Positions 27,416 through 29,983 of a stretch of DNA of 64,000 nucleotides are shown here, piece after piece. Position numbers and translations under genes: made by a program. This stretch comes from Nitrososphaerota archaeon (GTDB lineage: Archaea > Thermoproteota > Nitrososphaeria > Conexivisphaerales > Conexivisphaeraceae): the NCBI GenBank assembly GCA_015522695.1, contig WALT01000002.1, positions 1-64,000 on the forward strand, written 5' to 3'. The notes beneath the pieces were generated by a model. That model did not search any database and was not told where the DNA came from. It saw nothing but the letters and a program-made list of their open reading frames with translations. Each line of letters starts with the position of its first letter. Within the stretch, counting starts at the first letter, position 1.

Positions 27416-28177
27416 TCACTGGTACCTGATGATCTTCCTCCCACAACGGTTGCACACGAATGTCAGTTCATAGACACCTTTGCTGAGCTTCTCGCTTATG
27501 AGCTGCATGGTACCTCCGCAAAGGCAGACGTTCCCATAGGCCTCAGCGTACCTCTTGGCTGGACTCCTAGCCCCTATCAGCTCGAATAATCCATCCTCCA
27601 GTGTACCGGCCATCGATGCTAACCTAGAGAAGCCCTCCGGGGTGGCGACCTCATCCATCTCTCGGTCCATGAGCTTATAACCTTCCAATAATCTTCCGAT
27701 GAGTTCCATCGATGGTTTCAAGTGCTTATGTCTAGCCAACAGGAGGACCTTGGGCAACGCCCTATCGACGAGGTCCTTAATCCTTCGGACGAGCGGGCCG
27801 AAGTCCCCCAACGTATCGACGAGCTCGCCGCCCTCGTCGTCCCCGGCGAGCTCGTGGAGAAGGAGGACCGATTTCCCGGAGATAGCATCCGCCTCCTCTG
27901 CTGTGAACGCCACATAGAGATCTACATCCTCCTCCCCCCTTAAGGCTACACGGACTGCTGGAACGTCCACGCCCTCCTTCGATAGCGCCTCAAGGACCCT
28001 GCCGATCACCTTGTCGCTGTCCATGCTCCGCGATTCGACGATCGGTAAGCCCTCGATGGGTATGGAGCTCCCGAATCTATCGGCTAGCATCGTCTGTAAA
28101 AGGGCGGATGCTATCACACCCCTGGCGGGACTTCCTGACGAGTAGAAGCCTATGATGAACGATGTCAGCTGCATCAC
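27416..28177 (-). CDS. hypothetical protein with C-terminal zinc ribbon
   Basis: A 253-residue protein that I do not recognise. It begins with MMQLTSFIIGFYSSGSPARG, has an acidic middle with GDDEGGELVDTLGDFGPLV, then a helical region. It ends in a zinc-ribbon-like pair CLCGG and CNRCGRKIIRYQ about 25 residues apart. No membrane segment. TTTATTA about 26-30 nt upstream predicts a leaderless transcript starting near 28180. The export operon lies downstream on the same strand with its own promoter. Confidence 0.65.
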   Translation of the reverse strand: MMQLTSFIIGFYSSGSPARGVIASALLQTMLADRFGSSIPIEGLPIVESRSMDSDKVIGRVLEALSKEGVDVPAVRVALRGEEDVDLYVAFTAEEADAISGKSVLLLHELAGDDEGGELVDTLGDFGPLVRRIKDLVDRALPKVLLLARHKHLKPSMELIGRLLEGYKLMDREMDEVATPEGFSRLASMAGTLEDGLFELIGARSPAKRYAEAYGNVCLCGGTMQLISEKLSKGVYELTFVCNRCGRKIIRYQ

Positions 28178-28225
28178 TTGAGCCCAAGGATTTGTGGGGA
28201 CTAATAAACATGAACGTCAGATGGG

Positions 28226-28580
28226 ATGAGGCCCGCGCTTGGGCCGACACCCTGGAACACCCTCACGGTCCCCGGGGCATCCCCTCGGTCCTCGACATCC
28301 TCCGGGCGGGGCGGCGCCCATCCCGGTTTGCTCGGGGTCGGGGTCCCCTCACAGCCGGGAGGGAAGCCCCACCAACCCTTGAGGGTGTTGGGCCCTCCAG
28401 GCGCCCTTCGAACCGCTTGAGCGCTCCTGCCTAGCGGCTTTGGACCGCGCCACCTGCGGAGCAGGGATCCCTCTCCCCTCCCCCGGGCGGAGGAGAGGAG
28501 CATACTCGCTCCCCTGGTGGTTTGGCTCGCAGCCCCTTAGGCGAGCGCGGGCTCAAGTGTCGTACATCGCCATTTTTCCT
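28226..28580 (+). ncRNA. GC-rich structured RNA candidate, about 330-350 nt
   Basis: The region is far richer in G and C than its surroundings, as RNA genes of thermophiles are. Ends pair: AGGCCCGCGCT near 28230 with AGCGCGGGCTC near 28550. Inside, CCTGGAACACCCTCA (about 28252-28266) pairs with TGAGGGTGTT and TCCAGG near 28380-28400 with one internal loop. CCACC/GGTGG encloses hairpins CTGC-GGA-GCAG and CCTCTCC/GGAGAGG, and GCTCGC/GCGAGC pairs near 28527-28546. CATTTTTCC at 28570-28578 could terminate a plus-strand transcript, which favours that strand; the TATA-like element upstream is shared with the divergent gene, so strand is not proven. Size and closing helix would suit SRP or RNase P RNA, but I could not find their diagnostic loops. 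Confidence 0.55.
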
Positions 28581-28689
28581 TGTAAGTTGTGATGTCTATT
28601 GTGTTAGACAAGCATGCCAATAGGTTCTTCCCAATATCATCCGCATCTTTTTTATAGAGGGTTCTTATTGTGTAATGTGGGTGTAGCAT

Positions 28690-28989
28690 GTGCGTAGGAT
28701 AGCTAGCCTTCGACCTGGTGAGAAACATGTGGATGTTGAGGGCGTCGTCTCCGGGATCTCCGAGGAGAAAGTCGTCAGGCTTAGGAGCGGTAGGGAGGCA
28801 CGTGTCGTCGATGCTGTTCTGTCCGATGACAGCGGTTCGATAAGGCTGAGCCTCTGGAACGATGACATCGATAAGGTGAATGAGGGCGCCAAGATCAAGA
28901 TAGAGAACGGATATGTGACCATGTTCCGCGGTGAGAAGAAGCTTAACGTCGGCCTGTACGGCAGGCTTATCACGGTTTCAGAGAGCTGA
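28690..28989 (+). CDS. single-stranded DNA-binding OB-fold protein (archaeal SSB/RPA-like)
   Basis: A 99-residue single OB fold. SGREARVVDAVLSDDSGSIR then LSLWNDDIDKVNEG, AKIKIENGYVTMFRGEKKLN and VGLYGRL match the DNA-binding domain of crenarchaeal SSB. The acidic C-terminal tail of longer homologues is missing; the protein stops at TVSES, right at the edge of a hairpin insertion. GTG start at 28690; the ATG two nt upstream is in another frame and closes at once. TTTTTTATAG near 28648-28657 is a plausible TATA box. Confidence 0.8.
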   Translation: MRRIASLRPGEKHVDVEGVVSGISEEKVVRLRSGREARVVDAVLSDDSGSIRLSLWNDDIDKVNEGAKIKIENGYVTMFRGEKKLNVGLYGRLITVSES

Positions 28990-29083: not shown

Positions 29084-29983
29084 ATGATAATCGTCCCAGG
29101 TACTTCGAATGAACCGCTGGCGTTTAAGCTCGCATCCGCACTGGGCGCTAGGCTTGCGCGCATAGAGGCTAGGAGGTTTCCGGACGGGGAAAGGTACTTC
29201 AGGATACTCGATGACGTCCGCGGTGAGGACGTCGTGCTCTTGCAGTCGGCTGCGCTGAACCCTGACGAGTACCTCGTGGAGTTCCTCCTCGCCGCAGATG
29301 CCGTGAAGGATCTAGGCGCGGAGAGGCTCATCGGGGTGCTCGCGTACTTCCCCTATGCGAGGCAGGACGAGAGGTTCAAGCCCGGGGAGGCCGTGAGCTT
29401 GGTCACCGTCTTGAAGCTCATCAGGAGCGTGGGCGTGGACCATCTGATAACTGTGGATGCCCATAGACACAGGGTTCTCGACATGGAATCGGTGCTCGGC
29501 GTTCCACACACCGATGTGTCGGCGATGCCGCTGCTAGCTAGATATGCAGTGGCCAGCGGTCTCGTGGATGGGGAGAGATCGGTGATCATAGGCCCTGATG
29601 CGGAGGCCGAGCAGTGGGCTGCCCTGGCCGCCCATGAGCTCGGCGTGGAACATTCTTCCCTCAGGAAGGTCAGGCTTGGAGATAGGGAGGTCGAGGTCGA
29701 GACGACCAGGGGGATCGACGTCAAAGGCATGGACGTCCTGGTCGTCGACGACATAATCAGCACTGGAGGTACTATAAGGGAGGCTTACAGGTTATTGAGG
29801 GGCCTTGGAGCTAAGAGGGTCGTGGTCGGCGTGACCCATGCTCTTCTTGTGGATAATGCGCTCGCGAAGATCTTGGAGGAGGGAGTGGACGATGTCTTCA
29901 GTACAGACACCGTGCCGAACCCTACGACGAGGGTTAGCGTCGCCTCGGCGTTGGCGGATGGCGTCAGGAGGGCGCTTTCCTAG
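29084..29983 (+). CDS. prs: ribose-phosphate pyrophosphokinase
   Basis: A 299-residue enzyme that makes PRPP from ribose-5-phosphate and ATP for nucleotide, His and Trp synthesis. Motifs: RRFPDGERYFRI, YFPYARQDERFKPGEAVS, TVDAHRHRVL (DLHS-equivalent metal site) and the PRPP loop VLVVDDIISTGGTI. The ATG at 29084 gives a family-like N-terminus MIIVPGTSNEPLAFKLA. Its last 20 nt overlap the convergent mrp gene. Confidence 0.95.
   Translation: MIIVPGTSNEPLAFKLASALGARLARIEARRFPDGERYFRILDDVRGEDVVLLQSAALNPDEYLVEFLLAADAVKDLGAERLIGVLAYFPYARQDERFKPGEAVSLVTVLKLIRSVGVDHLITVDAHRHRVLDMESVLGVPHTDVSAMPLLARYAVASGLVDGERSVIIGPDAEAEQWAALAAHELGVEHSSLRKVRLGDREVEVETTRGIDVKGMDVLVVDDIISTGGTIREAYRLLRGLGAKRVVVGVTHALLVDNALAKILEEGVDDVFSTDTVPNPTTRVSVASALADGVRRALS

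Follow-up and report, generated by a model that had tools for sequence, protein, structure and literature searches.

A previously unlisted folded RNA of about 325 nt is very probably encoded in four Conexivisphaeraceae genomes

What is encoded by the GC-rich island at positions 28226–28580 of this archaeal contig? The window (the whole stretch of DNA analyzed, 64,000 nucleotides) belongs to a genome of 1.31 Mb in 34 contigs, 95.5% complete (G000), and the four-genome family in which the island was found is most likely the Conexivisphaeraceae (an inferred name), order Conexivisphaerales, Nitrososphaeria. Conexivisphaeraceae are anaerobes, and members of the order come nearly all from thermal habitats (PMC10833072). 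A preliminary description of the locus had marked a GC-rich island here, and GC content is indeed ~73% at the center against ~50–60% in the flanks. The same description took the island to be a large structured RNA, either a divergent version of SRP RNA or RNase P RNA, or else a new RNA.

The first of these options was addressed with the covariance models of Rfam 15. None of the 4227 families reached its gathering score anywhere in the window or in the three homologues described below, and with E values up to 10 nothing credible was obtained in the island, the best match of 18.3 bits being at chance level. Weak matches to sRNA-Xcc1, RAGATH-1 hammerhead, Twister-P5, Antizyme_FSE and NrsZ were all far below cut-offs and were rejected; a tmRNA reading of the island was rejected as well, as was a tRNA reading, no tRNA being found. 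For SRP RNA, neither the island nor any of the three homologues matched the archaeal model RF01857 at gathering score. That model contains the asymmetric loop of helix 8 and the tetraloop of helix 6, and its lack of a match to the island with E up to 10 is an indirect indication that both are missing. RF00373, which includes the P4 core of RNase P RNA with CR-I and CR-V, likewise matched neither the island nor its homologues. Both RNAs are located above the Rfam cut-off on another contig of the window genome (C7), with Archaea_SRP at C7:31337–31650 (113.8 bits, cut-off 96.5) and RNaseP_arch at C7:18765–19058 (176.6 bits, cut-off 84). SRP RNA is also found elsewhere in two of the relatives, above the cut-off in G001 and below it in G002 (62.9 bits), and the island's own model, when run against the SRP and RNase P RNAs, recognized neither. 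Although the island resembles these RNAs in size and GC content and is closed by a terminal helix, the view that it is a divergent form of either one is refuted for practical purposes. The second option, a new RNA, gains support from the lack of any matching Rfam family in the island or its homologues.

Homologues were identified through gene order. BLASTN with the window island retrieved no relative among 60 related genomes; its single match, in G011, lies inside a protein-coding gene and was rejected. In G001 (one contig of 1,593,902 bases), a GC-rich island whose ends are the same, and which has internal motifs in common with the window island, is located upstream of the same flanking gene and before the PRPP synthetase gene, and G002 has an island at the syntenic place. 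The G003 copy was found by BLASTN with the G001 copy, to which it is 96% identical, or 98% in the aligned RNA, so that the relatives and the window provide three clearly distinct RNA sequences. A covariance model built from G001, G002 and G003 only, with the window copy left out (R1), matched the window copy over its full length at 28229–28555 on the minus strand, across model positions 1–301 (57.7 bits, E = 3.4e-11). With a second model built from all four copies (R2), a single copy was recovered in each of the four family genomes. By synteny and then covariance models, one RNA copy is therefore placed between the flanking gene and the PRPP synthetase gene in 4/4 family genomes.

The PRPP synthetase gene is at 29084–29983 on the plus strand of the window (Pfam Pribosyltran_N, E = 2.4e-29) and lies directly beyond the RNA in G001–G003. 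In the window genome only, a gene for an OB-fold single-stranded-DNA-binding-like protein (28690–28989, plus strand; Pfam Ssb-like_OB, E = 1.7e-11) is present between the two; it is not there in the three relatives. A second relative of this OB-fold gene was observed on contig C25 of the window genome. Separately, an IS-like stretch in G003 (L036:2308–3060, G003:C1) with inverted ends GGTATTGGACGGATAAG is attached immediately upstream of the flanking gene, and on another G003 contig (L069) the RNA is intact beside that gene. This junction reflects either differences between strains or an assembly join caused by a repeat.

The distribution of the RNA was then surveyed with several searches. R2, run with more permissive filters and E up to 1, found nothing in 36 other genomes, 16 of them from the same order. 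R1, run with strict filters on ~400 genomes of the class, gave nothing else, a weak negative, as the window copy itself escaped these filters. At the PRPP synthetase loci of other families of the order, no stretch matched the RNA model, and searching a genome collection with the flanking protein alone gave no matches. A DNA motif search of named genomes returned the G002 and G003 contigs plus ten other matches, which were rejected by the model as not being RNA copies; one match from a scan of viral contigs was rejected in the same way. The RNA has so far been found in one archaeal family only, as a single-copy gene.

A consensus structure was obtained from the four copies with RNAalifold on a MAFFT alignment (A3). 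It contains 111 pairs, with 89.7% of cells paired. Compensatory changes in relatives, which the preliminary description had proposed looking for, are present: 30 pairs are changed on both sides, compared to 13.2 ± 2.6 in shuffles (0/500 as high), a count made on the same sequences from which the structure was derived. When one side was slid by 1–3 columns, only 5–7 both-side changes were counted versus the 30 observed. In this architecture, a closing helix (P1) leads to a junction from which two long arms (A and B) and one short hairpin (C) extend. Folding the window copy by itself also recovers P1 and the arm bases, with mean pairing probabilities of 1.00 for P1, 0.75 for the base of arm A, 0.94 for the base of arm B and 0.99 for hairpin C.

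In P1, the 5′ side (28545–28552, minus strand) pairs with the 3′ side (28231–28238, minus strand), and 8/8 pairs are formed in all four genomes with one compensatory A-U/G-C change. The pairing ends proposed earlier, AGGCCCGCGCT with AGCGCGGGCTC, are real and conserved in four genomes. Arm A (28429–28542, minus strand), the first long hairpin arm, has at its base GCCUA/UAGGC in the window and GUCCGG/CCGGAC in the relatives, with three compensatory pairs; in its distal helix, eight pairs are changed on both sides. Arm B (28254–28427, minus strand) is likewise supported by covariation, its basal helix having 96.8% of cells paired and eight pairs changed on both sides. Hairpin C (28241–28252, minus strand) is GGGC-GCGA-GCCC in the relatives and GGGU-GUCG-GCCC in the window, and leads through AA to the 3′ strand of P1. 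Confidence is lower for the distal parts of both arms. In the distal part of arm B the alignment is poorer, and the window copy has ~22 extra nt near the tip; the uncertainty there arises because only three distinct sequences are at hand and the window copy is only 52–58% identical to the others. The long internal helix of the preliminary description divides into two. Its CCTGGA/TCCAGG pairing is mostly kept (4–6/6 pairs in homologues), whereas ACACCCTCA/TGAGGGTGT (28257–28265 with 28380–28388), perfect in the window, forms just 2–4/9 pairs in homologues, which places it outside the conserved fold as probably an alternative or chance pairing.

The preliminary description had read the RNA from the plus strand, and most helices can pair on that strand too. 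The minus strand is favored by each of several comparisons. The consensus energy is −142.2 kcal/mol for minus versus −120.2 for plus, and the z-scores of the four sequences are −6.5, −6.2, −5.9 and −4.1 for minus versus −4.5, −4.7, −5.0 and −2.8 for plus. Single-sequence folding gave z = −4.95 on the minus strand (0/100 dinucleotide shuffles as good) and z = −2.0 on the plus strand (3/100 as good). The best plus-strand match of R1 in the window is 18.2 bits over 135 nt, compared to the 57.7 bits obtained for minus. The pattern of G-U pairs points the same way, as in hairpin C a pair retained as U-G on the minus strand would be an A-C mismatch on the plus strand, and substitutions between G001 and G003 in the RNA are mostly U/C on the minus strand. 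The T-run that follows the island in the window copy, sketched earlier as a T-tract or terminator, forms part of the plus-strand reading and is missing from the homologues.

Sequence upstream of the minus-strand 5′ end also carries a conserved footprint. A CTTAGATA block is kept in G001, G002 and G003 amid otherwise divergent sequence, 30–31 nt before GAACCC. In the window, the corresponding element is CTTACAAG (28579–28586, minus strand), 32 nt before the RNA start. A TATA-like box is thus found 30–32 nt upstream of a GA(A/G)CCC RNA start, at a near-constant distance in four genomes; in the window genome the box is weak and counts as a poor TATA-like element. At a comparable distance upstream of their SRP genes, these genomes carry A/T boxes as well. 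No block comparable to CTTAGATA precedes the plus-strand end of the island. Given these comparisons, a functional RNA made from the plus strand of the same island is quite improbable. The strand of the RNA is minus, and the R1 match, covariation and strand tests define a gene of ~325 nt at 28229–28555, with its 5′ end at ~28555 and its 3′ end at ~28229.

Comparison of the two close relatives indicates how the RNA is constrained. Between G001 and G003, 6/300 aligned positions of the RNA differ (2.0%), compared to 43/239 in one adjoining spacer (18.0%), 7/133 on the opposite side (5.3%) and 28/271 third codon positions of PRPP synthetase (~10%). Judged from these substitution rates, the RNA is under purifying selection. 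Indels of 1, 2, 4 and 5 nt separate the RNA copies and stops occur in the frames, which argues against a common reading frame or protein; protein coding was therefore rejected. We also considered an element that acts as DNA, such as a non-autonomous transposable element or a GC-rich palindrome, to which complementary ends and high GC would be suited. With a single copy per genome at a fixed position, and with compensatory changes that include G-U intermediates, this alternative is very unlikely.

The main rival to an independent RNA is a cis-acting leader, in which the RNA would be the 5′ untranslated region of the gene at 27416–28177 (minus strand) and act as a riboswitch or thermosensor. The product of this gene is a family-specific protein that combines an LMW phosphatase-like fold with a C-terminal zinc ribbon. 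Its AlphaFold model (pLDDT 85.9) has LMW-PTP/ArsC proteins as best Foldseek matches (E ~1e-4), and the protein matches no family in Pfam and none credibly in NCBIfam. FYSxxSPARG stands in place of CX5R, so that the catalytic Cys is absent, and the zinc ribbon is highly conserved. Among 61 genomes, the protein occurs only in the four RNA-bearing genomes of the family, the window protein being 46–49% identical to the three others.

This co-occurrence favors a leader, as does the position of the RNA, on the same strand and directly upstream of the gene in all genomes that are readable there, and a cis role of the RNA for its co-oriented neighbor is possible. Several observations argue in the other direction. 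The spacing from RNA to gene varies from ~50 to ~250 nt, and the G001/G003 spacer diverges freely (18%). The paired ends make the RNA a closed unit, no conserved switch is seen between the RNA and the start codon, and no Rfam riboswitch matches. In addition, a second TATA-like box, distinct from that of the RNA, stands between the RNA and each downstream gene, ~20–30 nt before the start: TTTATTAG in the window (28201–28208, minus strand), CCTTTATTTC in G002 and GGATTATAAC in G001/G003. A separate box argues that the downstream gene is not transcribed from the RNA promoter alone. On balance, we regard a leader as unlikely.

Homology, synteny, secondary structure, strand preference, selection and absence from Rfam together establish a conserved structured RNA gene at this locus. 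As far as the sequences can tell, the minus strand of 28229–28555 very probably encodes a folded RNA of ~325 nt that had not been listed before and is present in all four available Conexivisphaeraceae genomes. The closed fold, the fixed single-copy locus and the TATA-like boxes of both the RNA and the downstream gene are most likely explained by an independent, stable RNA that acts in trans. We consider it probable that this is a single-copy gene for a Conexivisphaeraceae-specific large structured noncoding RNA with its own promoter, serving as the trans-acting core of a ribonucleoprotein; its own transcription, action in trans and ribonucleoprotein nature are what we infer from the locus. In the proposed mechanism, the RNA would be made from its own promoter, its ends would close through P1 with the junction opening into arms A and B and hairpin C, and it would act in trans as a structural core, by analogy to SRP RNA and RNase P RNA. 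The neighboring zinc-ribbon protein could, speculatively, be its partner. We lean towards the view that the RNA represents an unlisted class of large archaeal RNA, a family-specific ribonucleoprotein core possibly joined by this co-inherited protein.

Archaea rarely have large structured RNAs other than ribosomal, SRP and RNase P RNA, and a conserved RNA this large, independently placed and lacking any relative in Rfam, points towards an unrecognized RNA-based function, here in a family of heat-loving archaea. In the literature collection searched, no paper mentions Conexivisphaera calida together with non-coding RNA. As the closest relatives appear to include this cultivated archaeon, the RNA should be open to expression and biochemical tests.

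Among known systems, the closest comparison is with archaeal SRP RNA (RF01857), which is also ~300 nt and GC-rich, ends in a closing helix and is encoded by a single-copy gene with a TATA-like box upstream. In place of the SRP helices, the island has a small 3′ hairpin and two arms, of ~114 and ~174 nt; it also lacks a match to the SRP model and coexists with a separate SRP RNA. Archaeal RNase P RNA (RF00373) is similar in length and GC content; here too the island has no match to the model, and RNase P RNA is encoded separately. The large 'orphan' structured RNAs (candidates of PMC2864571) share further features with the island. The island matches no Rfam 15 family and has been seen in one archaeal family only so far; like the orphan RNAs, it is a long, structured, noncoding intergenic region with covariation, recognized by comparative genomics.
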